Shown: positions 38,542-53,302 of the stretch, piece after piece
Numbering within the stretch: the first letter of the stretch is position 1
How the letters are laid out: each line of letters starts with the position of its first letter
Assembly (NCBI RefSeq): GCF_000816145.1
Contig: NZ_CP007141.1
Span: forward strand, 992,001-1,056,000
Source of the DNA: Pseudothermotoga hypogea DSM 11164 = NBRC 106472
Lineage (GTDB): Bacteria; Thermotogota; Thermotogae; Thermotogales; DSM-5069
DNA: 64,000 nt
Direction of reading: 5' to 3'
Translations under genes and position numbers: made by a program
Notes under the pieces: generated by a model
What the model saw: the letters and a program-made list of their open reading frames with translations, nothing else
What the model was told of the DNA's origin: nothing
Database searches by the model: none

Positions 38542-39594
38542 ATCAACGAGTTACAGCATTCGATTCTGGGTGTTCTATCGAAAGAAAATGAATGCACGGC
38601 GCGGCAGATCGGCGCGATCCTTTCTGTTGACGAATCTACCGTTTCGAGGAATCTGAAACCTTTGCTCCAGCAGAAGATCGTTATGGTGAAAAGCTATCTT
38701 CCTCCCACACAATTTGGTGGCAGAAAGACGCGCTTGCTCTCGCTCAACCCAGAATGGCTCAAGGTGCTCGGTGTTTCTGTGGAACAGGGAGAGTTGTGCT
38801 GGGCTCTGGCGGACTTCGCTTCGAACGTTGTTTCGTGTGAGGAACGTACCGTCGATGTGAACCAGAAGAATCTGATTCACATCTTGAGACAAGCTTTCGA
38901 ATCTGCCGGACAGTTCCACGCAGTCGCCATAGCCATGCCAGGCTTGATCGATTCCGCCAACAACACCGTGCTGATCTCTCAAGCGCTCGAGCTGAAGAAC
39001 TTCGTACTCGATGGATTGATAGAAAAACCCTTCTTTTTGATCAACGACGCGAACGCGGCTGCGGCGAGTTACCTGAGTAGAGCAAAGAATCTGGTGTACT
39101 TCTTACTCTCGATACCGTACGAGCTTTCAAAGCCCGTCGGACTGGGCGCGGGTTTGATCATCGATGGAAAGATCTACGAAGGTAGCAACCACTCCGCGGG
39201 TGAACTGGGTGAAGGAGTGCCACTAACACGAAAGAATGTGAGCTTAGAAGATCTCGAGAAAGATCCTGCGGTCCTATTTGAAGACGGCAAAACTTTAGAT
39301 CAATTCGTGGAAAATACCGCGTTCAAGATGGCGACGGCCATCAACCTCGTTGATCCAGAGCTGTTCATACTCGGCGGAGATTTCAAATTGTTGCCTGAAG
39401 AGCTGCTGCAACGCATCGTTCGAAAGATTGAAGACCAAGTGACGGTGAGAAAAGTTAAGACCTTGAACTGGCAGATCGACGAGAACGGTTCAAGGACAGT
39501 TGCAGTGGGAGCTGTTAGAGCTTTCTACGAAAGATTCTTCAGCGATCTCGACTTTGCGCAACGAGTCATTGAAAGAAAGGATGCGAGATCATGA
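38542..39594 (+). CDS. ROK-family transcriptional regulator, probable ATC start
   Basis: The frame codes for NELQHSILGVLSKENECTAR, then QIGAILSVDESTVSRNLKPLLQQKIV, a complete winged helix, and then the ROK sugar-binding half (AVAIAMPGLIDSANNTVLISQALELKNFVLDG, PFFLINDANAAAASYLSRA, LGAGLIIDGKIYEGSNHSAGELGEGV, NLVDPELFILGGDF). Between the in-frame TAG at 38527 and the helix there is no ATG, GTG or TTG; the first is a TTG at 38662, after the DNA-binding helix. ATC at 38542 lies eight bases after AGGGGG and gives a normal 350-residue protein. Alternatively the start codon has mutated and the gene is weak or dead. It heads an operon with GH3 and an ABC transporter and would repress it. Confidence 0.75.
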   Translation: MNELQHSILGVLSKENECTARQIGAILSVDESTVSRNLKPLLQQKIVMVKSYLPPTQFGGRKTRLLSLNPEWLKVLGVSVEQGELCWALADFASNVVSCEERTVDVNQKNLIHILRQAFESAGQFHAVAIAMPGLIDSANNTVLISQALELKNFVLDGLIEKPFFLINDANAAAASYLSRAKNLVYFLLSIPYELSKPVGLGAGLIIDGKIYEGSNHSAGELGEGVPLTRKNVSLEDLEKDPAVLFEDGKTLDQFVENTAFKMATAINLVDPELFILGGDFKLLPEELLQRIVRKIEDQVTVRKVKTLNWQIDENGSRTVAVGAVRAFYERFFSDLDFAQRVIERKDARS

Positions 39595-40958
39595 ACTTCG
39601 CTAAACTTCTCTTCTGTGGTGTTTCCGATCTGAATGATCTGCACATCGCTCTCGATCTCGGCGCAGGGGGAATTTTGATCTATCCCAAAATGTTCGAAGA
39701 TGTCTCACAGTTTGTAGAGCTCATGAATCTTCTCAAGGGGCGGAGGGTCTTTGTGTCCTGCGACCACGAAGGTGGTCAACTCGAAACTGTGCCTTTCGTT
39801 CCTCCATCTCCGGGAAACTTGTTGCTTGGTAGGACAGATCCGAGGTTCGTGAGAAGTTACTGTGAGATGGCGGGAAATTTCTTGCGAAGGCTTGGCTTCA
39901 ACAGCGTCTTCGCACCCGTTCTGGATGTGAAAAGAACCTATTCGAACGCCGTGGTGGGGTATCGCAGTTTTGGAGAAGATCCAAAAATCGTCGCAGAGAT
40001 GGGTAAAGCGTCAATCGAGGGGTATAAGAGTGCCAAGATTCTTTCGTGTGCGAAACATTTTCCGGGGCATGGAAGATCCAGAAAGGACAGCCACGAAGAG
40101 TTCGAAGTCATCGATGCGAGCATCGAAGAACTCCAAGAAGATCTATTACCTTTCAGAGAAGCCATCGACGCGAGAGTCGATTTCGTCATGCTCGCGCACT
40201 TGGTTTACAGTTCGCTCGATACCAAACCTGCTTCGATCTCGATAAAGATCGTTCAAGAGATCCTCAGAGAACAGCTCTCCTTCGAAGGAATCGTTGTCAG
40301 CGATGCGGTGGAAATGAAGGCGCTCTCAAAGAGATTCAAACCCAGCCAGATCGTTCAGGAGTTTTTCAACGCATCTGGCGATATGTTGATCGTTTCGAAA
40401 GCGAAGAACGTGAAGGGCTATCTTGAAGCCATCGAGGAAAACTTACAGGCAGGAAGAATTCCAAAAAGAATGATTGAAAGGGCCATCGACAGGGTGAATT
40501 CCAAGCTTGTTGAGGTCGAGAGCGATGTGGCGAACTTGTTTGAAGCGATCGAAAAAGCTGTAGAAATCAAAGTTTCGAGTCTGAGACCTTTAGCAGCGTT
40601 GCTCGTTCTACCAGATGAGATCTCGTACAGCGCAGCGGACGTTTCCGCTTCTTACGTTGCGACGATCAAGAAACAAGCACGAAAATATCTGAAGGCGCGG
40701 TGCATTTCTTTCAGCCAGGTCCGCTCTGTCGATGCAAAACATCTGCTCATAGATTTGATCGTCGATGCTTCCGAAAATGAGATCTCACTCCACAGAGAGC
40801 TTTCGAGGAAATTTTCAACCATCTACATCATCACGAGAAACCCGCACCTTGCGGAGTACTTCAGCGACAAACCTCACGTGGTCACATACTCTCTGAGTCC
40901 GCTGGTGATAGGGTACGTCTTTCGAAAACTTGCACAACTCTCTCAAGGGGGTGTTTAG
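39591..40958 (+). CDS. Glycoside hydrolase family 3 (NagZ-like)
   Basis: 455 residues, overlapping the ROK stop by four bases. GH3 features: RVFVSCDHEGGQLETVPFVPPSPGN, AKHFPGHGRSRKDSHEEFEVID (the NagZ-type His/Asp loop) and nucleophile Asp in FEGIVVSDAVEMKAL. No signal peptide, so cytoplasmic. The C-terminal 120 residues form a second small domain. It precedes the binding protein and permease genes of the same operon, so its substrate is probably the imported oligosaccharide, a beta-linked amino sugar or glucoside. Only about as similar as the family average to the GH3 at 12249, so not a recent duplicate. Confidence 0.86.
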   Translation: MNFAKLLFCGVSDLNDLHIALDLGAGGILIYPKMFEDVSQFVELMNLLKGRRVFVSCDHEGGQLETVPFVPPSPGNLLLGRTDPRFVRSYCEMAGNFLRRLGFNSVFAPVLDVKRTYSNAVVGYRSFGEDPKIVAEMGKASIEGYKSAKILSCAKHFPGHGRSRKDSHEEFEVIDASIEELQEDLLPFREAIDARVDFVMLAHLVYSSLDTKPASISIKIVQEILREQLSFEGIVVSDAVEMKALSKRFKPSQIVQEFFNASGDMLIVSKAKNVKGYLEAIEENLQAGRIPKRMIERAIDRVNSKLVEVESDVANLFEAIEKAVEIKVSSLRPLAALLVLPDEISYSAADVSASYVATIKKQARKYLKARCISFSQVRSVDAKHLLIDLIVDASENEISLHRELSRKFSTIYIITRNPHLAEYFSDKPHVVTYSLSPLVIGYVFRKLAQLSQGGV

Positions 40959-40959
40959 G

Positions 40960-42171
40960 ATGTTGAGGAAACTACTGTTCGTGGTCTTGGTTCTTGCCAC
41001 CGTCCTGAGCCTTGGAAAGACGAAGCTTGCGTTCTGGCAGTTCATGATGGACGATGCGCTCGCGAAGGAAGTCCTGGCTGGCTTTGCGAAAGAGTATCCA
41101 GACATCGAAGTCGAGGTTGTTCAACTGTCTTGGTCCACGGGGTTTGATAAGATCGTTACAGCGATCGCAGCCGGTGCGGCACCCGACGTCGTGGAGCTCG
41201 GCAACACCTGGGTTGCGAGCTTTGCTTCCAAGAACGTTCTGCTCGAGATGCATCCAGAAGACCTCGCCAAGTACAAGAACTTTCCAGGTGCCAACTGTGC
41301 CGAGTACATGGGCAAGTACTACGGCTATCCGTGGCTCCTTGGAACGCGCGCCATGTTCTACAACGTCGATCTCATGATCAAGGCAGGTCTGGATCCAGAC
41401 AAACCACCAGAAACTTGGTCAGAACTGCTCGAAGCGGTGAAGAAGATCTCGGCACTTCCAGGCGTTTACGGGATCGGACTGCCTGCGGGTGAAGTGTACA
41501 GCCCATGGCAAGAGTGGTTCTTGCTCGCGATCTGGGGCAACGGTGGAGACGTGGTGTCGAAGGATCTTAAGAAGGCTGTACTGAACTCACCGCAGAACAG
41601 AGAGACCGCTTTGTTCTACCAAGAGCTGTCGAAGTACGCTTTGAAGAGCAAGCAGAAAGACCTCGGTGAAGCCTTCGGAGAAGGTAGGGTTGGCTTCCTT
41701 GTGAGTGGAGCTTGGTCCATAGGCACGCTCGCGCAGTCTTATCCTAACTTGAACTACGGAGTTTGCTTGATCCCGAAACCCGACAAGCCTGAAGGCATCC
41801 ATGCTTCGTTCTTGGGTGGTGAGGTTCTCGCGATACCTTCTCAGTGCAAGAACGTCGATGCGGCAAGGAAATTGATAAACTACCTCATGAGACCACAAGT
41901 GGCGATGATCATCACCAAGCACTATCCTGGAGTGTACCCTGCCGATCCAAGAGCTGCTTCAGACCCATGGTTCGAGGACAATCCGTTGCATCTTGTGTTC
42001 TTCGAACAACTGAAGACTGCTTTCCCTGTACCACCGACTCCAGCGTGGCCGAAGATCGAAGACATACTGACCAACGTCGTGGACGATCTCATCGTCAGGT
42101 ACAAGAGCGTCGATGAAGTTCTCAGCTACTACAACGAGCAGATCCAGAGGGTGCTCGATGAGGTGAAATGA
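40960..42171 (+). CDS. ABC transporter sugar-binding protein
   Basis: 403 residues from the ATG one base after the GH3 stop, with AAGGGGG upstream. Signal peptide KLLFVVLVLATVLSLG, then KTKLAFWQFMMDDALAKEVLAGFAKEYPDIEVEVVQLSWSTGFDKIVTAIAAGAAPDVVELGNTWVASF, typical of family 1 oligosaccharide-binding proteins (the GNTW segment contacts sugar in several relatives). Periplasmic. Followed by a GC-rich stem-loop and two permeases. Confidence 0.9.
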   Translation: MLRKLLFVVLVLATVLSLGKTKLAFWQFMMDDALAKEVLAGFAKEYPDIEVEVVQLSWSTGFDKIVTAIAAGAAPDVVELGNTWVASFASKNVLLEMHPEDLAKYKNFPGANCAEYMGKYYGYPWLLGTRAMFYNVDLMIKAGLDPDKPPETWSELLEAVKKISALPGVYGIGLPAGEVYSPWQEWFLLAIWGNGGDVVSKDLKKAVLNSPQNRETALFYQELSKYALKSKQKDLGEAFGEGRVGFLVSGAWSIGTLAQSYPNLNYGVCLIPKPDKPEGIHASFLGGEVLAIPSQCKNVDAARKLINYLMRPQVAMIITKHYPGVYPADPRAASDPWFEDNPLHLVFFEQLKTAFPVPPTPAWPKIEDILTNVVDDLIVRYKSVDEVLSYYNEQIQRVLDEVK

Positions 42172-42174
42172 AAA

Positions 42175-42199
42175 AAGCCGGGGGCGAATGCCCCCGGTT
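42175..42199 (+). terminator. Stem-loop between binding-protein and permease genes
   Basis: Arms CCGGGGGC and GCCCCCGG with GAAT loop, flanked by A-rich and T-rich bases, 6 bases after the binding-protein stop. No proper U-run; a likely mRNA 3'-end protector or partial terminator. Confidence 0.7.
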
Positions 42200-42214
42200 C
42201 TCTGGGGTGAAAAC

Positions 42215-43084
42215 GTGAGAAAAAGAGAGAAAATCACAACGCTTGTCTTTATTCTACCTTGGTTGGTGAGTTTCTGCATCTTCGTTCTCTATCCCATAGT
42301 CTTTTCCATCTACGTCAGCATGACGGATTACTCTGGTCTGACGTGGAACATGAAATTCGTTGGATTTTCCAACTACGTCAGAGCCTTCAACGATAGAGTC
42401 TTTCTCAGAGCGCTCTCGAACACCTTCTTGTTCGTGCTGATCACCGTACCAGCCACGACGGTGATTTCACTGTTTCTGGCCGTGCTGTTGACGAGTGGAA
42501 TCAAGTTCAAACGTCTCTTTCAGGCTGGTTATTTTTTACCATCCGTGATCTCCATGGTGGTCATATCGATGATCTGGTTGTATATCTACAGCGCCATGGG
42601 ACCTTTGAACATGCTGTTGAGGTCTCTGGGGATCGACGTACCAGCGCGAAGCTGGCTCGCTTCCGAAAAGACTGCGCTCGGCTCCATCATGGTGATGGAC
42701 GTCTGGTCCGCCGTGGGTTACTACACCGTGCTCTTCGTCGCAGGTCTTCAAAGTTTGCCGTTGCAACTCTACGAAGCGGCCAGGATCGATGGGGCGACGA
42801 AGTGGCAGATTTTTAAAAGAATAACGCTTCCTCTGTTGAAACCCACGATCTTGTTTGTCGTATCTATAAACTCGATCCGTTCTTTTCAGATCTTCACCGA
42901 GATCTTCACGCTCACCGGTGGTGGTCCTGCCAACTCGACGCAGACGATAGTTCATTATCTCTACGACGTTTCGTTTCGAAAGTTCGAGATGGGTTACGGT
43001 TCAGCGATCGCTTATGTACTGTTTTTCATTGTGCTGGCAATAACATTGCTTCAAAGAAAGATTCTGAAGGGTGAGCAACTATGA
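42215..43084 (+). CDS. ABC sugar permease, MalF type
   Basis: 289 residues from the GTG at 42215 with GGGGTGAAAAC upstream (an ATG at 42188 lies in the hairpin). Six hydrophobic segments starting TTLVFILPWLVSFCIFVLYPIVFSIYVSMTDY; EAA loop QLYEAARIDGATKWQIFKRITLPLLKP. ATG overlap with the next gene. No ATPase gene in the operon. Confidence 0.92.
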   Translation: MRKREKITTLVFILPWLVSFCIFVLYPIVFSIYVSMTDYSGLTWNMKFVGFSNYVRAFNDRVFLRALSNTFLFVLITVPATTVISLFLAVLLTSGIKFKRLFQAGYFLPSVISMVVISMIWLYIYSAMGPLNMLLRSLGIDVPARSWLASEKTALGSIMVMDVWSAVGYYTVLFVAGLQSLPLQLYEAARIDGATKWQIFKRITLPLLKPTILFVVSINSIRSFQIFTEIFTLTGGGPANSTQTIVHYLYDVSFRKFEMGYGSAIAYVLFFIVLAITLLQRKILKGEQL

Positions 43085-44295
43085 AAGTGTTGGTGTATTC
43101 TTTGCTTGTGCTCTTCCTTGTGATCTCGCTTTTTCCAACGTTTTTGATGTTCTCCACCTCTTTCGTGCCCGAAGGAGATCTGTTCAACAGAACGATCGAA
43201 AAGACCGTGTCAGATTTCGAAGCACCAAGGACCGTTTTGCTGACCAGGGTCCGTCCCATTGGAAAGGCCTTCGAACTCGTCAAGGATGAGAAAAACAGTT
43301 TTGCGAGGTTGGACTCATCCAAAGAAGTTATCGGATTGGCGTTCTCGATGGGTTCTTCCGACATCAACAGACTGTCCCACTTGGTTTTCAAGGTGAGGGC
43401 CTCAAGTGCACTGAAAATGAATTTCTTCTTCAAAGACATAAGAGAGAGTGTGGAAAAATTTGCCGAGATCGTCATAGATCCAACATCGCAATGGAAAACG
43501 ATGAGAGTGAACGTAGAACCAAAGAAGTTGACGCTGGATGTTTTACACATTTCTCAGTTGAGAATAACGATCGAAGGCGATGGAACACTGGAGATAGACG
43601 ATGTGATCTTGGTGAACAGATATCCAACGCTCTACAATTTTGTGAAGGTCCTGAGAGAGGACTACTTCAGAAGATATCTTTTGAACAGCACAGTCGTTTC
43701 AGTCTGCTCCGTCTTTGGAAACCTTTTCTTCTGCTCGCTCGTAGCCTACGCGTTTGCGAGAAAACAGTTCAGAATGAAAGAACTTCTCTTTTCGATCGTC
43801 CTTTCAACGATGATGATCCCCCCACAGGTCACGATCATACCCACCTTCATCTTGATGAGAAAGCTCAACCTGATAAACACCTACTGGGCCCTGATACTTC
43901 CGAATCTCGTCACACCCTTTGGAATCTTTCTCATGCGACAGTACTTCGAACAACTTCCGCTGGAGCTGGATCAGGCGGCGAGGATAGACGGGGCGGGAGA
44001 TTTCAGGATCTTTTGGAACGTCCTCTTACCTCTGAGCAAACCTGCGCTTTCCGTGCTTGGCATAAACACCTTCGTGCTCACGTGGAACGATGTGTTCTAT
44101 CCGTTGATCCTCACGACCTCCCGCGAGATGAGAACGGTGCAGATCGGATTGGCGCTGTATCAAAAGCTGAACGTCTTCACTTGGCCAACTCTCATGGCCG
44201 CTTCCACGATAGCGGGACTACCCATCATCATTGTCTTTCTCATATTCGAAAAGAGGATCATCTCTGGTATCTTGGAGGGTGCCATCAAGAGTTAG
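43081..44295 (+). CDS. ABC sugar permease, MalG type, with a large extracytoplasmic insertion
   Basis: 404 residues, against about 275-280 for ordinary MalG-type permeases. Residues 3-24 are the first membrane segment. Residues about 28-182 are an extra soluble domain rich in beta strands: VIGLAFSMGSSDINRLSHLV, KMNFFFKDIRESVEKFAEIV, QWKTMRVNVEPKKL and GTLEIDDVILVNR; the closing IDDVIL strand is characteristic of jelly-roll carbohydrate-binding modules. From YNFVKVLREDYFRRYLLNS onward the standard permease resumes with five more segments and EAA loop ELDQAARIDGAGDFRIFWNVLLPLSKP. The insertion faces the outside, where the binding protein docks. Its 3' end overlaps the convergent GH130 gene by 11 bases. 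Confidence 0.9.
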   Translation: MKVLVYSLLVLFLVISLFPTFLMFSTSFVPEGDLFNRTIEKTVSDFEAPRTVLLTRVRPIGKAFELVKDEKNSFARLDSSKEVIGLAFSMGSSDINRLSHLVFKVRASSALKMNFFFKDIRESVEKFAEIVIDPTSQWKTMRVNVEPKKLTLDVLHISQLRITIEGDGTLEIDDVILVNRYPTLYNFVKVLREDYFRRYLLNSTVVSVCSVFGNLFFCSLVAYAFARKQFRMKELLFSIVLSTMMIPPQVTIIPTFILMRKLNLINTYWALILPNLVTPFGIFLMRQYFEQLPLELDQAARIDGAGDFRIFWNVLLPLSKPALSVLGINTFVLTWNDVFYPLILTTSREMRTVQIGLALYQKLNVFTWPTLMAASTIAGLPIIIVFLIFEKRIISGILEGAIKS

Positions 44296-45310
44296 TCAGA
44301 CACAGCTCGATCAGGTCCTTCACCTTCGCCGTGGCGAGACATATCGTCGTATCTGCCGCACCGTAGTAGATCTTCACCTCTTCTTCGTCCAAAACTGCGC
44401 CCGTCGGAAAGATCACGTTGTTTCTGAATCCTCCACTGATCTCGTACTCTGCTTCGGGTGCGAGGATGGGTTGTTTGTAAACACCGAGAACCCTGGTCGG
44501 ATCGTTCAGATGCAAAAGCATCACACCGGCACTGTAACGCTTGGTCCACTTCTCCTCCCAGCCGTTCTTTCCTCTGTTCGGATCGACATCTACCGCGTGG
44601 AAGATCACCAACCATCCTTTCTCCGTCTCGATGGGAGGTGCACCGGGTCCAACCTTGCAGTTCGCGAAAGGTACGTCCTCAACTGCGAGCAACAATCTGC
44701 TTTCACCCCAGAACCTAAGATCTAATGAAAAACTCATCCACATGTCGAACCTCTCCATGCCGAGTCTTCCATAGACTGGGAAAGGTCTTTCGAGCCTCAC
44801 GTAACGACCGTTGATCTTTCTGGGAAAGAGCACGACGTTCCTGTTGTCTGGGGTGGACAGATGGATCACTTCGAAGTTCTCAAAATCGTGAACGATCGCG
44901 ATACCAGCCCTGATGCCATGCAAGGTGTCCACAGCGAAGCTCATGATGAGTTCGTCTTCGACGACGTTGAGCCTTGGATCGTAGATCCTCAATACATCTG
45001 GCTCACTCAGGAACATCGGCAGGGGTTTCGGTTCGACCTTCCACTCTACACCGTCGTCGCTGAATGCGAGTCCCAAGTTCGTGCCTTCGAGCCTCTGTTC
45101 CTCAAAAGAGCCGTGGTCGTTGCGAAAGACCATGACGTACTTTCCTTTGTACTTGCACACACCCGGGTTGAAGACCAAGGCAGAAGAGTAAGGCACATGT
45201 TTTCTCGTGAGTATGGGATTCTTTGGATGCCTCTTCACCTTATCGGAGGATTTCAACTCGCCGATCGGACTTGGTTTAAAGAGCTCCAAGAACTTTTGAA
45301 CTTCGATCAC
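44285..45310 (-). CDS. Glycoside hydrolase family 130 phosphorylase (mannoside type)
   Basis: 341 residues from the GTG at 45310 (AGGTGA five bases upstream). GH130 five-bladed propeller pattern: NPILTRKHVPYSSALVFNPGVCKYKGKYVMVFRND, GLAFSDDGVEWK, the proton-donor Asp in RIYDPRLNVVEDELIMSFAVDT, then KVGPGAPPIETEKGWLVIFHAVD and SAGVMLLHLNDPTRVLG, EISGGFRNNVIFPTGAVLDEEEVKIYYGAADTTICLATAK. Such enzymes split beta-mannosides with phosphate, giving mannose 1-phosphate and saving ATP. No signal peptide. It is transcribed towards the ABC operon on its left and away from the ROK operon on its right. Confidence 0.9.
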   Translation of the reverse strand: MIEVQKFLELFKPSPIGELKSSDKVKRHPKNPILTRKHVPYSSALVFNPGVCKYKGKYVMVFRNDHGSFEEQRLEGTNLGLAFSDDGVEWKVEPKPLPMFLSEPDVLRIYDPRLNVVEDELIMSFAVDTLHGIRAGIAIVHDFENFEVIHLSTPDNRNVVLFPRKINGRYVRLERPFPVYGRLGMERFDMWMSFSLDLRFWGESRLLLAVEDVPFANCKVGPGAPPIETEKGWLVIFHAVDVDPNRGKNGWEEKWTKRYSAGVMLLHLNDPTRVLGVYKQPILAPEAEYEISGGFRNNVIFPTGAVLDEEEVKIYYGAADTTICLATAKVKDLIELCLTNS

Positions 45311-45476
45311 ACCGTTCACCTCACCCAGTTATTACATCACGCGATGGAGTCATAGGTGAAGTGTCGATTTTCCTGAATAATTTTTCCTACGCGGCCTTTT
45401 GGTCAATTATGTGCGATTATCACCGAGATCCCTTTGACAGTTAAAGTTTTCATAATGTAACACCCAAATCCACGAC

Positions 45477-45545: not shown

Positions 45546-46676
45546 TTGCTCACCGAACTTGAAGGCTCAGTACTGCGCTTGATAAGGGACAATCAAAACA
45601 TTTCGCGTTTGGACATCGCCAAAGAATTGGGCGTCAGCAAGCCTGTCGTTACCAACGTGGTGGCTCGGCTGATCAAGAAGGGCTTGGTGGTGGAATCTGG
45701 GACAAGGAAAACGAGGGTGGGAAGACCGAAGATCACCTTGCAGTTCGTTCCAGACGCGTGGTACTGCGTTGGAATCGAATTGGAAGAGAAGTACTTCGAA
45801 CTGATCGTCACAGATTTGGCTGGACGCGTGATCGATTCGCGGGAAGAGAAGATACCCAGATCGGTCGAACCGAATCACTTGGTGTCTTTCTGCAAGGAGA
45901 AGGTGGAACGAACTTTGGAAGAAAACCAGTTACCAAAGGAAAAGATACTCGGTGTCGGTATAGGTATCGCTGGAATGGTGGACCCAACCAGTCGAGTTGT
46001 AAGAACGGCTCCAGCGATAGGCTTGACGAACTACGATCTTGCGTTTGAGGTCTCTGAAAAGTCTGATTTGAGCGTGATCGTCGTGAACAGGGTCAAAGCT
46101 GCTGCCCTCGCTGAACATCGCTTGGGTGCGGCTCGAGGGTCCCAGAGCGTTCTGTTCGTCTTCATCGACAGTGGTCTTGGTTGTGCCGTGCTCTTGGACG
46201 GAAGGATCTACGAAGGTTTCTACGGCAAGGCTGGAGAGTTCGGGTGGATGATCACGGACTTGGATCGATCAGAACCAGAACTGTGCGAGGAAGAAAGTTT
46301 CGGACATCTGGCGAGAAGATTCTCAGGTCATGCGATCAGCAAAAGGTTGGCGAGTCTCGGACTGAACAGTGAAGATGTCTTCGACGCGATGACGCACAGT
46401 GCGGAACTGAGAGAATCGTTGAAGAGAGGTTTGAAACACATCGCGGCGGCCGTCGCGAACGCCGTTCTCTTGTTCGACCCGCAGTTGATCATCCTCAAAG
46501 GAAGAATAGGTCAAAACCACTATGAGCACATCTCAGAGATCTTGCTATCAACGTTGAAAGAACTTCTTCCAAGCCAGTTCTACGAGAATCTGAACTTGCG
46601 CAAAGGTCAAGTTGAAAGGTTCGACGTCGCGCTCGGAGCAGTCTTCGCGGTGCAACAGAGGTTCATGCGTCTGTGA
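45546..46676 (+). CDS. ROK-family transcriptional regulator
   Basis: 376 residues from a TTG at 45546 with GGGGGA six bases before. N-terminal winged helix (LEGSVLRLIRDNQNISRLDIAKELGVSKPVVTNVVARLIKKGLVVESG), followed by the ROK sugar-binding half (GVGIGIAGMVDPTSRVVRTAPAIGLTNYDL, VFIDSGLGCAVLLDGRIYEGFYGKAGEFGWM, LLFDPQLIILKGRI). The usual zinc motif CxCGxxGC is missing. It stands 30 bases upstream of the binding-protein gene and presumably represses the operon until an oligosaccharide or its product binds. Confidence 0.9.
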   Translation: MLTELEGSVLRLIRDNQNISRLDIAKELGVSKPVVTNVVARLIKKGLVVESGTRKTRVGRPKITLQFVPDAWYCVGIELEEKYFELIVTDLAGRVIDSREEKIPRSVEPNHLVSFCKEKVERTLEENQLPKEKILGVGIGIAGMVDPTSRVVRTAPAIGLTNYDLAFEVSEKSDLSVIVVNRVKAAALAEHRLGAARGSQSVLFVFIDSGLGCAVLLDGRIYEGFYGKAGEFGWMITDLDRSEPELCEEESFGHLARRFSGHAISKRLASLGLNSEDVFDAMTHSAELRESLKRGLKHIAAAVANAVLLFDPQLIILKGRIGQNHYEHISEILLSTLKELLPSQFYENLNLRKGQVERFDVALGAVFAVQQRFMRL

Positions 46677-46706
46677 GAAATCACACTCTTTCGAGGAGGT
46701 GTTGGT

Positions 46707-47942
46707 ATGAAGAGGTTGTTGGTTCTGTTGATGGTCATCGCTGCACTCTCAGTCTTCGCAGACACCGTGCTCATGTGGTTCACAGACGGTCCAGACTTCG
46801 ATCTGATCACAGAACAGACCAACAGATTCACCAAACAGACGGGTGAAAAGGTGGTCATACTGAACCTGCCGTATTATCTGGAGTACAAGCCCAAGCTCGC
46901 CGCCATGGCGAAGGCAGGCTCTCCACCAGACGTGGCAAGGGAGACGGACCTGCTGCCCTGGTTGGATTACGCGGTCGATCTCAAACCTTTGGTGGAGAAG
47001 TACACGGGCATGAAGTTCGAAGAATGGCTCGACAACGTTTCCTTCTACAAGGCCGGTTTCAAGAAGCTGTACGAGAAGTACGGTAAGGTCATTGGTATTC
47101 CTTACACTTCCGACGCACACGCGATCTTCTACAACAAGGAGATCTTCAAGAAAGCCGGCATAGAGCCACCCAAGGACAGGCCGTGGACCATCGACGAGTG
47201 GTACGCAGCCATGAAGAAGATCAAGCAGAGCGGTGCCGCAAGGTACGCATTGGTCTACGATTTCAGTCCTTACAGGTTCGCCAACCTATTGTACGTGTTC
47301 GGTGGCGGCATATGGGACAGGGAAGGAAAGAACATCATAATCGATTCGAAGGAATCGATCGAAGCACTCGAATTCTTCGTCAAGCTGCACGACGAAGATC
47401 TCATACCCAAGGCAGTGTGGCTCACGGGTGACGCACCGGCAAAATACTTCCAAAACGGTCTTGCGGCGATGTACGTCTCTGGAACTTGGATGCTGGCACA
47501 GTTCAGAGAGCAGTTGAAATTCGACTGGGGTGTCGTCATGTGGCCGTACAAGCGCGAGCGTGCGGTCATGACCGGTGGAAAGTACATAGTACCATTCACC
47601 GAAAAAGGTGCGGCGCTCGCGTTCTTCTTGACGAACGAGCAGAACCTCGCAGAGTTCGCTGGTAAACTCTTCTTGATACCGGACCGCAAAGACTTGGCAG
47701 ACAAAGTCAAGATAGAAGATCCTCTGATCAACGAAGTGTACACCATCGTCATGAAAGACCTCGATCAATCCACGCGCGGTAGCATGGTTCCCGATTGGTA
47801 CGATCCGGACACCGCCGCCATCGTGCAGACGAACAGAGCAGTGATAAACGATCACATCAAGGCTGCGATCGCGAAAGAGAAAACACCAGAACAGGCCTTC
47901 AAAGAACTCGCCGCGATCCTGAGAAAGGCCGCCGGAAAGTGA
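46707..47942 (+). CDS. ABC transporter sugar-binding protein
   Basis: 411 residues with signal peptide RLLVLLMVIAALSVFA and mature start DTVLMWFTDGPDFDLITEQTNRFTKQTGEKVVILNLPYYLEYKPKLAAMAKAGSPPDVARETDLLPW. Family 1 binding protein with aromatic cleft residues (WLDYAVDLKPL, DRPWTIDEWYAAMKKI, SGTWMLAQF). GAGGAGGTG upstream. Ligand probably an oligosaccharide cut by the two glycosidases at the end of the operon. Confidence 0.9.
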   Translation: MKRLLVLLMVIAALSVFADTVLMWFTDGPDFDLITEQTNRFTKQTGEKVVILNLPYYLEYKPKLAAMAKAGSPPDVARETDLLPWLDYAVDLKPLVEKYTGMKFEEWLDNVSFYKAGFKKLYEKYGKVIGIPYTSDAHAIFYNKEIFKKAGIEPPKDRPWTIDEWYAAMKKIKQSGAARYALVYDFSPYRFANLLYVFGGGIWDREGKNIIIDSKESIEALEFFVKLHDEDLIPKAVWLTGDAPAKYFQNGLAAMYVSGTWMLAQFREQLKFDWGVVMWPYKRERAVMTGGKYIVPFTEKGAALAFFLTNEQNLAEFAGKLFLIPDRKDLADKVKIEDPLINEVYTIVMKDLDQSTRGSMVPDWYDPDTAAIVQTNRAVINDHIKAAIAKEKTPEQAFKELAAILRKAAGK

Positions 47943-47945
47943 TGA

Positions 47946-47972
47946 AAGAGCCCGGGCGAGGCCCGGGCTCTT
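47946..47972 (+). terminator. Stem-loop between binding-protein and permease genes
   Basis: Perfect 12-bp stem, arms AAGAGCCCGGGC and GCCCGGGCTCTT, loop GAG, 3 bases after the binding-protein stop. No U-run; the permease ribosome site follows directly. Confidence 0.75.
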
Positions 47973-47990
47973 CGAAAAGGGGTAGATATT

Positions 47991-48854
47991 TTGAAGAGAC
48001 AGTATTACGCGTGGTTGTTCCTTTTGCCAAATCTTGTCATATTCACCATCTTCGTGGTCACTCCGGCGTTGAGTAGTTTTTACTACGCACTGACGGATTA
48101 CGACATGGTCAGATTCTCTGGAAAGTTCATCGGGCTGGCCAACTTTCGATATCTGTTCGGTGGTGCGAGCGATTTTGGGAGAGTTCTTTTGAGAACTTTC
48201 ATGTACTCGGCGATGGTCGTTCCGATCGCCTTCTTCACATCGCTCTTCTTGGCCGTTATCACGAGCTCCGATCTGATCAAAGGCAAAGCGTTCTTGAGAG
48301 CACTCTTCTACTGGCCTTGGTTGCTGTCTCCTTCCATCATCGGTGTCTCGTGGAAATGGTTTCTGGACTACGATGCCGGACTGATCAATATATTGTTGTT
48401 GAAGAACGGTGCTTCACCGATCCCTTGGTTGCTCGATCGACGACTCGCCTTTTTGAGTGTCGTGCTGGTGACCGTTTGGAACGTTGCGGGCTATTTCATG
48501 GTCATGTTCAACTCCGCTCTGACCGCGATCCCAACGGAAGTCTACGAAGCCGCCGCTTTGGACGGTGCGAACCGCTGGGTGAGGTTCTGGAAGATCATTT
48601 TCCCGTTGCTTAAACCTACAGCGGTCCTGGTTTTAGTTCTGAGCACGATCATGTCCATGAGAAGCTTCGAAATCATCTATGTCTTCACCGCAGGTGGTCC
48701 CGGCACAGCGACTACTGTACTCGCTCAAAAGATCTATTACACCGCATTTTTGGAACGTAAACTTGGTATGGCATCCGCGATGTCCGTGATCCTCTTTGCC
48801 ATATTGATAACGCTATCGCTGATACAGATCAGGATTCTGGAGGAAGAGGTATGA
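47991..48854 (+). CDS. ABC sugar permease, MalF type
   Basis: 287 residues from a TTG at 47991 with AAGGGG upstream. Six hydrophobic segments (first YYAWLFLLPNLVIFTIFVVTPALSSFYYALTDY) and EAA loop EVYEAAALDGANRWVRFWKIIFPLLKP. Overlaps the next permease gene by four bases. Partner of the MalG-type gene that follows; ATPase supplied from elsewhere. Confidence 0.92.
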   Translation: MKRQYYAWLFLLPNLVIFTIFVVTPALSSFYYALTDYDMVRFSGKFIGLANFRYLFGGASDFGRVLLRTFMYSAMVVPIAFFTSLFLAVITSSDLIKGKAFLRALFYWPWLLSPSIIGVSWKWFLDYDAGLINILLLKNGASPIPWLLDRRLAFLSVVLVTVWNVAGYFMVMFNSALTAIPTEVYEAAALDGANRWVRFWKIIFPLLKPTAVLVLVLSTIMSMRSFEIIYVFTAGGPGTATTVLAQKIYYTAFLERKLGMASAMSVILFAILITLSLIQIRILEEEV

Positions 48855-49666
48855 AGAAGCTGATCCACATTTTGCTGAATCTTGCAGTTTATCTGTTTGC
48901 CTTTCTCTACGTTTCACCGATAGTCTGGACGATCTTCTCCAGCTTCAAAGACGAAGCGGACCTTTTCTCTTGGCCCCCAAAGTTGATAAGCCAACCGACG
49001 CTCGTCAACTACCTTCAAGTCGTTCGTAAAACCCAGTTCGCACTCTTCTTCAGAAACTCTTTCTTGGTCTCAGTCTCAGCGACGCTGATCACTGTCATCA
49101 TAAGTGTCATGGGTGGATATGCGCTTGCAAAGTACCAGTTCCGCTTCAAAAACCAGGTCTCTACTTTCATCCTCTCGATGTTGATGATACCCCTGCAGGT
49201 CATCATGGTGCCCATATACCTCGTTCTGTCGAGGTTGGGGATGATAAACACGCTCTGGGGGCTCATCATCCCACCCGCCGCAACGCCCACGGGAATCTTT
49301 TTGGCACAGAAGTACATAGTATCCGCAATACCGGACTCTGTGATAGAGAGTGCAAGAATCGACGGAGCCAACGAGATCAAGATTTTCTTCAGAATCATTC
49401 TGCCTCTGACACAGCCTCTGATCGCCGCTCTTGCGGTCCTGTCTTTCACCTGGCGCTGGAACGATTTCCTCTGGCCGATGATCGTGGTGGGTTCACCGAA
49501 ACTTTACACGATACAGCTCGCCCTTGGACTTTACGCAGGCGAACACATCGTTCAGTGGGGACCTCTGTTGGCGATGACGGTGCTTTCAATGGTACCGGTT
49601 CTGATTGTCTTCATAGCCCTTCAAAAGTACTTCGTCAAGGGTATCACCACGGGCGCGATCAAGTGA
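48851..49666 (+). CDS. ABC sugar permease, MalG type
   Basis: 271 residues, standard length, six hydrophobic segments and EAA loop SVIESARIDGANEIKIFFRIILPLTQP; C-terminal LQKYFVKGITTGAIK tail. No insertion after the first segment, in contrast to the paralogue at 43081. Confidence 0.92.
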   Translation: MKKLIHILLNLAVYLFAFLYVSPIVWTIFSSFKDEADLFSWPPKLISQPTLVNYLQVVRKTQFALFFRNSFLVSVSATLITVIISVMGGYALAKYQFRFKNQVSTFILSMLMIPLQVIMVPIYLVLSRLGMINTLWGLIIPPAATPTGIFLAQKYIVSAIPDSVIESARIDGANEIKIFFRIILPLTQPLIAALAVLSFTWRWNDFLWPMIVVGSPKLYTIQLALGLYAGEHIVQWGPLLAMTVLSMVPVLIVFIALQKYFVKGITTGAIK

Positions 49667-49677
49667 GGTGAAGGCGT

Positions 49678-51456
49678 GTGAGGTACACGATCGTCGATGG
49701 ACAAGTGATCTACGAAGGTTCAAATGAAGATTACATCATGTCCAACATCGAGCTTACCTTGCGACTTAAGAATGGAACTCCAGCCGAGCTCTTTTCGTCC
49801 AAGAAAGGTCTTCTGATCGAATTCTCGAAGAACGATCTTCCAAACCCGACGAGCTGTCGACTCTGGCCGAACGGTTGCGAGTTCTCGCACGAGAAAACCA
49901 CTTGGTCTTTCTTCACCTCACCTTGGATAAGATCGGTGCTGTGGCAGATCAAAGGGATGGAAAGATTGACCCTATCCTTCAAAGCGCCACTCGAAAAACA
50001 TTTCAAAGTACCTTTCGGACCAACCTACAACTTCAAAAAACCTTTGAACGTGATCGTCGAAGGTTCCAACATAGACCTGTCAAATTTGGTCAGAATCGAG
50101 GTTCTGGAGGGAAAGATCGAAGATCTTCAAAGAAAAGATGAAACCTTCACGCTGAAACTCTCTGCGACGAACAAAGAGTTGAAGCTTCGATTCTCCACGC
50201 AGAAAGAGATCGTCAACGAACGAGCTGAGAATCTCTCCTACAACCAATTTTTGAAAGACCACGTTCCGAGAAACTTGAATGAATTGAAAAAGAGTCTGGC
50301 ACTGTTCGCACTCCACACCGCGCTCAGCAACTGGAAAGATCTTGGAAAAGTTCACGCCTTCGCCGCGGGTGTTAACTACTCTTTCCCACCGAGGACCTAC
50401 TTCAGAGACTCGTTCTGGACGTGTTTGAGTTTGCTCGACGTGCGGGCAGATCTGGTCAGAGAGCAGATTCTCATCTTAGCCAGTGCGGTGCACGACGATG
50501 GCTGTCCGAGCGGTGTGATGTTCTTGAGCGATGAAGAGAAGATGTTCCTCGCACAATTGAAGAAGGAATATCCCGCTCTCGCTGCGGGTGTGAAGTACGA
50601 AAACGACTGGTGGAGTGGACACCACGATTCCGGTTTTCTCTTCGTGCTGTTGGTCTCGAAGTACGTTGAGAAAACTCAAGACGTTTCGATCCTGAAGGAA
50701 CGTATCGATTCAGACACAGTTCTCGAAAAAATACTCAAGGTGCTGAGATACGCCGAAAACTTCGTTGAAAACGATCTTTTCAAGAAACCTCACGACTGTC
50801 TCGATTGGGCAGACAACGTGTTCAGAGATGGCTTCGTCACCTACGACGCCGCCTTGCACGCCGCAGCCATGAGGGAAGCTTCGAAGCTTTTGAAGATGAT
50901 GGACATGCGCGAGCAAGCAGAGTTCTGGGAATCTCGGTATCTTTCAACGAGAAAGAAGTTCAACGAGGTTCTCTTCGATGAGAGAAAAGGTTACTTCGTC
51001 GATTTCATTGGAAGTTACGTGGAGGACCATCTTGCGCTCGACACTGTGGTTTCGATCATCTTCGATGTTGCCGACGAAGACAAAGCAAGATCCACACTTT
51101 TGAAGATGGAAAAGTTTCTGGAAACCAGAAACAACCCATCGCAACCTTACGGCGACTGGGGCGTCATGACCGTATGGCCGCACTACAAAAGAAGATCGCA
51201 TCTGTTCGGCAAAAGCGCCTTTCCTTACAGATACCACAACGGAAGCTGCTGGCCGTATCTGAGTAGCATTTATGCCCTTGCGAAGTCAAGGTATGATTTG
51301 GACCACGAGTATCCACTCTTGAGTTGGTGGAAGTATTCGCTCGAGAACGGCTGGGTGAACTTGGTCGAGTATTATTCACCGTGCTATCCGCGTGGATCGC
51401 TGCAGCAAGCGTGGAGCAGTTTCGCGTTCGCGATGGTGTTACAGATAAAATCATGA
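49678..51456 (+). CDS. (alpha/alpha)6-barrel glycosidase, debranching-enzyme-like
   Basis: 592 residues from a GTG with GAGGTGA upstream, no signal peptide. The first 190 residues form a beta-rich domain (TIVDGQVIYEGSNEDYIMSNIELTLRL), the remainder an (alpha/alpha)6 barrel: GVNYSFPPRTYFRDSFWTCLSLLDVRADLVREQILILAS, KYENDWWSGHHDSGFLFVLLVSKY, KKPHDCLDWADNVFRDGFVTYDAALHAAAMREAS, YRYHNGSCWPYLSSIYALAKSRYDL. This is the architecture of amylo-alpha-1,6-glucosidase and GH63/GH37-like enzymes; RDSFW and DWAD segments carry candidate acids. I cannot name family or linkage. It belongs to the ROK-ABC operon. Confidence 0.8.
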   Translation: MRYTIVDGQVIYEGSNEDYIMSNIELTLRLKNGTPAELFSSKKGLLIEFSKNDLPNPTSCRLWPNGCEFSHEKTTWSFFTSPWIRSVLWQIKGMERLTLSFKAPLEKHFKVPFGPTYNFKKPLNVIVEGSNIDLSNLVRIEVLEGKIEDLQRKDETFTLKLSATNKELKLRFSTQKEIVNERAENLSYNQFLKDHVPRNLNELKKSLALFALHTALSNWKDLGKVHAFAAGVNYSFPPRTYFRDSFWTCLSLLDVRADLVREQILILASAVHDDGCPSGVMFLSDEEKMFLAQLKKEYPALAAGVKYENDWWSGHHDSGFLFVLLVSKYVEKTQDVSILKERIDSDTVLEKILKVLRYAENFVENDLFKKPHDCLDWADNVFRDGFVTYDAALHAAAMREASKLLKMMDMREQAEFWESRYLSTRKKFNEVLFDERKGYFVDFIGSYVEDHLALDTVVSIIFDVADEDKARSTLLKMEKFLETRNNPSQPYGDWGVMTVWPHYKRRSHLFGKSAFPYRYHNGSCWPYLSSIYALAKSRYDLDHEYPLLSWWKYSLENGWVNLVEYYSPCYPRGSLQQAWSSFAFAMVLQIKS

Positions 51457-51472
51457 AACGGAGGTGTTCGAA

Positions 51473-53302
51473 ATGGTGGAAAAATGGAACCATTTTTCGG
51501 TCTACATGTGGGCAGGGCCAGGAACGATCAGGATAAACAAAGTGAAGTTTCCGGGCACCGCCGTCGATGAGAAGGTCCACATGGAGGGAGGACTGAGGAT
51601 AGGTGCGAGAAGACTGAAAGAGATGGGCTACAACTGGGCCTATTGCACGTACAACTGGGGTTTTCCACCTGAGATCGAGCACGAAGATCACGAATATTTC
51701 AAACGGACGGTGAAAGAATACCATGAAGAAGGCTTGAGGGTGCTGGGATACGTTCAATTTTCCAACACGGTCTTCGACGGTTCTTACGTCACCAAGCGAT
51801 GGTACGCGATGGATCAGTTTGGGAACAAGATCAACTACTACTCCGGTCGTTATTTGACCTGCCCGACGGACGAGGAATGGAAGGTGCACCTTACAGGCAT
51901 CGTCAAAGAAATCGTCGAGGCCGGAGCAGATGGAGTGTTTTTCGACAACGTCTTCGGTTCATGGTTCGGTTTCAGGCCGTGTTACTGTGACAGATGCCAG
52001 AAGCAGTTCAGAGAATTTGCGAAATCTCTCAGCTTAAATGTCCGCGGTATTCCAGAGTATCTGTCGGAGAACGAAGAATCGAGAGCGTATTTGATCTGGA
52101 GGAGGAAAGTTCTCTGGGAGACCATAGAGGAGCTCGCAAAACTTGCAAAGTCCATCAATCCGAACGTGGTGGTCTCTTCGAACTCCTTCGAGGCATGTTT
52201 GAGCAAACTTGCGATCATGGCGGGGGTGGATCTGAGAAACGCGTTCGAAGTTCAGGACTGGGTCATGATCGAGAACCACCAGCTTCCAAGGAAGTTCAAA
52301 GGTCTACAGATCTTCAACACCATGACCTACAGGATCGCTCATGCGCACAGCAAGGGAAAACCCGTCACTTCCGTTCCGTACATGCTCGGTATCGGTACGG
52401 ATGCGGTTTATCCCATCAGGAACTATCTGCAAGGGATGGCGGAAGCTTATGCCAACGATTCGGTCATGGTCCTGAAGGGTACTGAATATTTCCACGACGG
52501 AAAATGGACGCTCATCACCGATGAGAAATTCGAAGAGGTACGCAAACAGATCGCAGATTACCACAGCTGGTTCAAGGGTGAAAAAGGCGTTTGGAAAGAT
52601 TGCTACGGAAAGAGGACCACAAAGATCGCGATCTTTCATCCGTACGATTCGCTCACCTTCCATTGGGAAAGGACGTACCTTCCATTTTTCGCCGCGCAAC
52701 ACGAATTGATCAAGAATCGAATCGATTACAAAGTGGTCTGGGACGACTTCGAAAACGTTGAAGTCTTACTCGTACCACCGATCTTTGAAAAGAGTGAGAT
52801 GGAGAAGATCAAAGATTTCAAAGGAAAGAAGATCTTCCTTGGATACTCACCTTTCGAGAACGAAAAGATCGTTTGGAAAGAGACTTACGAAAGACTCGCG
52901 CAGCTTTCCAAGCCAGAAGAGCAACTCTATCTCGAACAGATCCTTTCACTGCTGAACTTCTCTGCGTACTTCAACGATCCGAGTTGGAGAAAGAGGATGG
53001 AAAAAGCGAACTTTCTGTTCTTCAATTATCTGAACTATTGCTACGTTTTCACCCATCCGTTCGACGCACAGGAGTTGATCGAGCTGGTGAAACCTCACCA
53101 ACCTTGGACCGTCGAAGCGGACGGTTTTATCATTGTCAGCAGTTTCGAACAGAATGGCACGTTGAAGATCCATCTGGTGAACCTTGAAGATAGACAAGTC
53201 AACGTGAATCTGGTCCTTCCAAAAGGTTGGCACGTTGAGAGGATCGACAATTACGAATACGAAAACGCTTTCGTGCATAGGATCTACACGGTGAGATTCT
53301 GA
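51473..53302 (+). CDS. Putative TIM-barrel glycoside hydrolase with amidotransferase-like domain
   Basis: 609 residues from the ATG at 51473, five bases after GGAGGTGTT. The N-terminal 350 residues form a TIM barrel (LRIGARRLKEMGYNWAYCTYNWGFP, YHEEGLRVLGYVQFSNTV, EAGADGVFFDNVFGSWFGFRPCYCDRCQKQFREFAK, NPNVVVSSNSFEA). The Asp pair in GVFFDN is a candidate catalytic site and the CYCDRC cysteines could bind metal. Residues about 375-480 (KIAIFHPYDSLTFHWERTYLPFFAAQHELIKNRIDYKVVWDD ... GKKIFLGYSPFENEKIV) resemble the trimerisation domain of GH42 galactosidases. The ending resembles a small beta-sandwich. Likely cytoplasmic. Family not identified. Last gene of the operon. Confidence 0.7.
   Translation: MVEKWNHFSVYMWAGPGTIRINKVKFPGTAVDEKVHMEGGLRIGARRLKEMGYNWAYCTYNWGFPPEIEHEDHEYFKRTVKEYHEEGLRVLGYVQFSNTVFDGSYVTKRWYAMDQFGNKINYYSGRYLTCPTDEEWKVHLTGIVKEIVEAGADGVFFDNVFGSWFGFRPCYCDRCQKQFREFAKSLSLNVRGIPEYLSENEESRAYLIWRRKVLWETIEELAKLAKSINPNVVVSSNSFEACLSKLAIMAGVDLRNAFEVQDWVMIENHQLPRKFKGLQIFNTMTYRIAHAHSKGKPVTSVPYMLGIGTDAVYPIRNYLQGMAEAYANDSVMVLKGTEYFHDGKWTLITDEKFEEVRKQIADYHSWFKGEKGVWKDCYGKRTTKIAIFHPYDSLTFHWERTYLPFFAAQHELIKNRIDYKVVWDDFENVEVLLVPPIFEKSEMEKIKDFKGKKIFLGYSPFENEKIVWKETYERLAQLSKPEEQLYLEQILSLLNFSAYFNDPSWRKRMEKANFLFFNYLNYCYVFTHPFDAQELIELVKPHQPWTVEADGFIIVSSFEQNGTLKIHLVNLEDRQVNVNLVLPKGWHVERIDNYEYENAFVHRIYTVRF

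Follow-up and report, generated by a model that had tools for sequence, protein, structure and literature searches.

A CBM11-like jelly-roll domain within the MalG-type permease of a Pseudothermotoga hypogea importer, probably for chito-oligosaccharides

In ABC sugar importers, recognition is generally attributed to the binding protein and the pore. In the stretch of DNA analyzed here (the window: 64,000 nucleotides of P. hypogea, contig NZ_CP007141.1, positions 992,001 to 1,056,000), one permease of such an importer carries an additional domain resembling carbohydrate-binding modules (CBM), which raises the question of where this domain came from and what it does in a transporter. The domain is real and conserved, and the substrate of the importer is probably chito-oligosaccharides. 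A domain of single origin, probably derived from a CBM and fixed in one operon, makes for a clean natural experiment: one and the same operon slot includes it in Pseudothermotoga and several further genera of the Thermotogota but lacks it in Thermotoga-type genomes.

An additional domain between membrane helices 1 and 2

The gene (43081..44295, plus strand) encodes a protein of 404 amino acids, and its ATG overlaps the stop codon of MalF, the gene just upstream. An earlier note, made from the sequence of the window alone, had described it as a MalG-type permease with a sugar-binding-like domain inserted after the first membrane helix. The first part of this description was borne out by the BPD_transp_1 Pfam domain (residues 222-392, E 9.3e-16), the EAA loop, the C-terminal helices and the nearest NCBIfam models (UgpE, GlcU and MalG); the SugB chain of LpqY-SugABC and E. 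coli MalG chains were the top matches in a structural search with the model of the whole permease. The operon partners, a binding protein and a MalF-type permease, also placed the protein in the CUT1 group.

Membrane helix 1 (residues 2-26, 43084..43158, plus strand) was located by the AlphaFold2 model and by a hydropathy peak. It was followed by an extra domain of about 145 amino acids (residues ~36-180, 43186..43620, plus strand), running from DFE to LEIDDVILVNR, and then by an ordinary MalG core with helices 2-6 and the EAA loop (residues 184-404, 43630..44292, plus strand), delimited by the predicted helices and by identity in distant orthologues. The earlier limits of the domain (residues 28-182) were thus slightly generous with respect to its folded part. 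Residues ~25-186 were missing from ordinary paralogues, which aligned only from about residue 180 on. In a survey of about 35 permeases from the window genome and other genomes (the helix could not be placed in a few cases), the loop separating helix 1 from the core measured 19-34 residues in nearly all, in line with the figure of about 30 given earlier for ordinary MalG proteins, and 45 in one, versus ~160 residues here. The insert is therefore real and exceptional, and a loop of this length is not common among the permeases surveyed. A frame or annotation artefact was ruled out by the recurrence of the full-length architecture in other Thermotogota genomes. Several paralogues also had long open frames (418, 518, 384 and 377 codons), but these proved to be upstream frame extensions and not inserts.

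In this permease family the EAA loop, which follows helix 4, faces the cytoplasm, so the far end of helix 1 should be extracytoplasmic. By this topology, with the helix count taken from the AlphaFold2 model, the insert would lie outside the membrane, next to the site at which the binding protein docks, in agreement with the placement proposed earlier.

The operon and its likely substrate

Upstream of the permease, on the same strand, were the genes for a ROK-family protein of 310 amino acids (38662..39594; Pfam ROK), whose homologues head the operon in other genomes, a GH3 β-N-acetylhexosaminidase-like enzyme with a NagA_C domain (39591..40958; Glyco_hydro_3 and NagA_C, with the β-N-acetylhexosaminidase model NF003740 below its cut-off), the solute-binding protein of the importer (40930..42171; SBP_bac_1, E 5.5e-47) and the partner permease of MalF type (298 amino acids, 42188..43084; BPD_transp_1), a conserved neighbour. 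The order ROK, GH3, binding protein, MalF and insert-bearing MalG was kept in most of the genomes compared, across families, and the GH3 gene was replaced or lost in a few. Neighbours in relatives included NagA (N-acetylglucosamine-6-phosphate deacetylase), a GH18 chitinase, GH20 and GH84 hexosaminidases and a SIS-domain protein resembling glucosamine-6-phosphate deaminase (NagB/GlmD). NagA/NagB adjoined several orthologous operons; the nagA homologue of the window genome lies elsewhere. The GH3 enzyme with its NagA_C domain, together with these GlcNAc-pathway neighbours, makes uptake of chito-oligosaccharides probable, and from this gene content chitobiose or longer GlcNAc oligosaccharides are the most likely substrate.

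A convergent GH130 mannoside-phosphorylase-like gene (44285..45319, minus strand; Glyco_hydro_130) overlapped the 3' end of the permease gene by a few bases. It adjoined the permease only in the closest relative (L085), and in one other genome (L089) a distantly homologous gene lay downstream, on the strand of the permease; since it lies apart from the permease in most other genomes, it is probably not a member of the operon.

The ChiR regulon of T. maritima has the same composition and a chitobiose-responsive regulator (PMC3750489). Its ChiEFG operon comprises a ROK regulator, a GH3 chitobiase, an E-F-G transporter and nagB/nagA, of which a ROK gene, a GH3 gene and a transporter are present in the window. 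In the Thermotoga-type genomes, probably Thermotoga to judge by gene content, the MalG has 271 amino acids and no insert, its core falls in another clade of the permease tree, and the binding protein is only distantly related. Orthology of the window transporter to ChiEFG was rejected on these grounds, and the different MalG clade indicates that the transporter was exchanged between Thermotoga-type and insert-bearing operons. The presence of an ordinary MalG in the Thermotoga-type slot also indicates that the insert is not required for such uptake in general.

Other rearrangements were seen at orthologous sites. In one genome (G008, L149:6699-8302) the site of the operon had lost the transporter genes and kept just the ROK gene with a truncated GH3 gene. 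In one group of relatives, three loci (L090:8022-9296, L092:3884-5134 and L093:10576-11844) encoded a MalF partner of 417-425 amino acids instead of ~295, with an extra hydrophobic stretch of ~120 residues after the motif LYLYSAEGPFN; this stretch, absent from the window, is likely to form several membrane helices.

Fold, relationship to CBM11 and origin

AlphaFold2 predicted ten strands in jelly-roll order, both in the full protein (8 sequences, mean pLDDT 73) and in the isolated domain (3 sequences, mean pLDDT 66, most strands 60-88), with moderate confidence in the domain model. The best match of the domain among solved structures was the CBM11 of C. thermocellum Lic26A-Cel5E (1v0a; Foldseek E 1.9e-6, TM-score 0.54), and the matches were dominated by carbohydrate-binding modules: after CBM11, among others, CBM29, CBM30, CBM6, CBM16 and CBM61. 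With TM-scores of 0.5 and rmsd values of 4-6 Å, the models make the fold class clear but not its detail. Profile comparison agreed. The insert aligned with a CBM11 profile (six sequences gathered from Bacillota genomes) with a probability of 90.9% over 141 columns, the DFE of one pairing with the DFE of the other and the closing iDD motifs likewise, compared with 17.6% for the insert against CBM4_9, 0.1% for the insert against a binding-protein control, and 22% for CBM11 against CBM4_9 (hhalign). Taken together, the structural match and the profile match indicate a CBM11-like domain that probably derives from a CBM, as the earlier comparison with jelly-roll sugar-binding domains had anticipated.

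Sequence searches were less telling. The Pfam model of CBM11 (PF03425) matched neither the permease nor any of 19 inserts, and the insert alone gave weak matches only against Pfam, NCBIfam and PDB sequences. The CBM of laminarinase 16A and CBM29 were among the best matches in PDB, yet insignificant, and Agarase_CBM gave a weak match; weak matches to a TTC3 winged helix and to a viral polyprotein were taken as chance. The insert differs from CBM11 also in its host: it sits in a membrane permease, whereas CBM11 belongs to a glycoside hydrolase.

The same architecture was sought elsewhere with a profile built from the alignment of the 19 inserts. The profile matched 32 of the 103 Thermotogota genomes searched, in nearly every case a single time, and the matches belong to one orthologous operon; the nearest named relatives were from Pseudothermotoga metagenome-assembled genomes (89% and 72%). 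No match was found in 399 Bacillota genomes, an empty result which proves little by itself. In a tree of the permease core, all 30 insert-bearing proteins formed one clade (support 100/100) with no insert-free member, and the insert was retained in every clade member sampled, across several families. This distribution is explained by a single insertion in the ancestor of some of the Thermotogota, with vertical descent, loss or transfer thereafter. In another genome (G089), several additional copies of the insert-bearing gene, broken and containing in-frame stops (C6:3323-3822, C12:2135-2634 and C11:389185-389656), accompanied an intact copy (L159), suggesting duplication and decay.

Large insertions at this site have a precedent in the phylum. 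The MalG1 and MalG2 proteins of the Thermotogales carry a hydrophilic stretch of ~500 residues between helices 1 and 2, for which no function was reported (Noll et al. 2008, PMC2246101). They resemble the present case in subunit type, insertion site and phylum, but their insert is much longer and their context is maltose/mannoside (PMC2246101) rather than GlcNAc. The window genome encodes one such MalG (754 amino acids, L150:10001-12262), with an insert of ~500 residues and BPD_transp_1 as its sole Pfam match. Shared origin of both inserts was rejected: the jelly-roll profile has one match in the whole genome, and the two cores fall in separate clades. The jelly roll is a second, independent and smaller insert at the same MalG site, with a recognizable fold; the first MalG loop thus took in large domains at least twice in the Thermotogota, one of these having been reported in 2008 with its function unassigned at that time. 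Literature searches returned no description of an ABC permease that contains a CBM-like domain, though one may exist elsewhere.

Possible functions of the insert

Conservation within the insert was concentrated in few positions. F46, D119 and D173 were invariant in the 30 orthologues, and D45 and E47 were each present in 90%. D45-F46-E47 (43213..43221, plus strand) is the opening motif that pairs with the DFE of CBM11. W138 (43492..43494, plus strand), the sole conserved tryptophan of the insert, was kept in 28 of 30, and D94 and V/I175 were conserved too. In the closing "iDDv" motif (D173-D174, 43597..43602, plus strand), D173 aligned with D164 of CBM11, and D174 was present in 87%. F46, D173 and V/I175 look like residues of the fold. 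Of the seven aromatic residues invariant in the six-sequence CBM11 set, none was aromatic in the window protein, whose insert has one Trp and no Tyr (Trp plus Tyr: 10-16 in CBM11 domains, 9-19 in CBM4_9 domains). The insert thus retains the fold of a CBM without its ligand residues. It also evolved faster than any other part of the transporter: in distant orthologues its identity was 16-27%, versus 60-69% for the core, 56-61% for MalF and 51-62% for the binding protein; its length varied from 130 to 164 amino acids.

The reading that we prefer, with a probability of about 0.5 and largely by analogy, is that the insert faces a protein partner and serves in docking or gating. In an ancestor of some of the Thermotogota, a CBM11-like jelly roll would have entered the first extracytoplasmic loop of a MalG (ChiG-like) subunit, in an ABC importer for GlcNAc-containing oligosaccharides, and it would serve there as a rigid, protein-facing accessory that helps to keep the binding protein in place over the pore, to orient it or to gate it. 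Its role would be comparable to that of MalF P2 in the E. coli maltose importer, and its origin different. P2 lies between helices 3 and 4 of MalF (PMC2246101), a position distinct from that of the present insert after helix 1 of the MalG-type subunit, as the earlier note had remarked, and it is reported, in work cited in PMC3328499, to interact at all stages of the cycle with the maltose-binding protein. Like P2, the insert is an extra domain on a CUT1 permease subunit, probably outside the membrane, with a proposed contact to the binding protein. Contact with the binding protein is plausible on this analogy. Given the low identity of the insert compared with the binding protein, any interface would be small, restricted to a few conserved loops, or co-evolving. 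Computation directly supports the insertion, its fold class, its single origin and its operon, while the location outside the membrane, the substrate and the docking or gating role are inferred.

The earlier suggestion that the transporter itself might hold long glycans through this domain did not fare well for the window protein. A working carbohydrate-binding module, concentrating chito-oligosaccharides or other glycans at the mouth of the transporter for the binding protein, would suit an operon devoted to glycan uptake, the CBM folds (11, 29, 30, 6, 16 and 61) that dominate the structural matches, and the weak sequence matches to the laminarinase CBM, CBM29 and Agarase_CBM. However, the absence of all seven CBM11 aromatics and the scarcity of Trp and Tyr favour a protein-facing role over a purely glycan-binding one, and together with the rapid evolution of the insert and the fold-related look of its conserved residues they leave glycan binding by the window insert with little support; we regard it as a tentative and rather unlikely alternative. 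Trp plus Tyr amounted to 1-4 per insert within the family of the window protein and to 4-12 in other families, and column 104 was Trp or Tyr in 19 of the 30 orthologous inserts, often outside the window's own family, where a binding role may be more open than for the window protein. The bolder variant, that a CBM was recruited into the permease as a second, transporter-borne site of glycan recognition beside the binding protein and active in substrate delivery, appears improbable; if true, the translocator itself would take part in oligosaccharide selection.

The insert may also be mainly a structural or neutral passenger with no specific partner, for example a heat stabilizer or a spacer from the cell wall or outer sheath. 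Its rapid divergence and variable length would fit, as would the unrelated insert of ~500 residues that another MalG of this genome carries in the corresponding loop, which indicates that the loop tolerates insertions. Such a passenger is harder to reconcile with retention of the domain in every sampled member of the clade, over several families, and with the invariance of D119, D173 and F46 and near invariance of W138, and we consider this explanation unlikely. Docking or gating is preferred over both glycan capture and a structural passenger.

Directly downstream, the window holds a second carbohydrate cassette (45546-53302), comprising a ROK repressor, a binding protein, two permeases, a glucosidase-like GDE_C protein and a GHL6 hypothetical glycosyl hydrolase.
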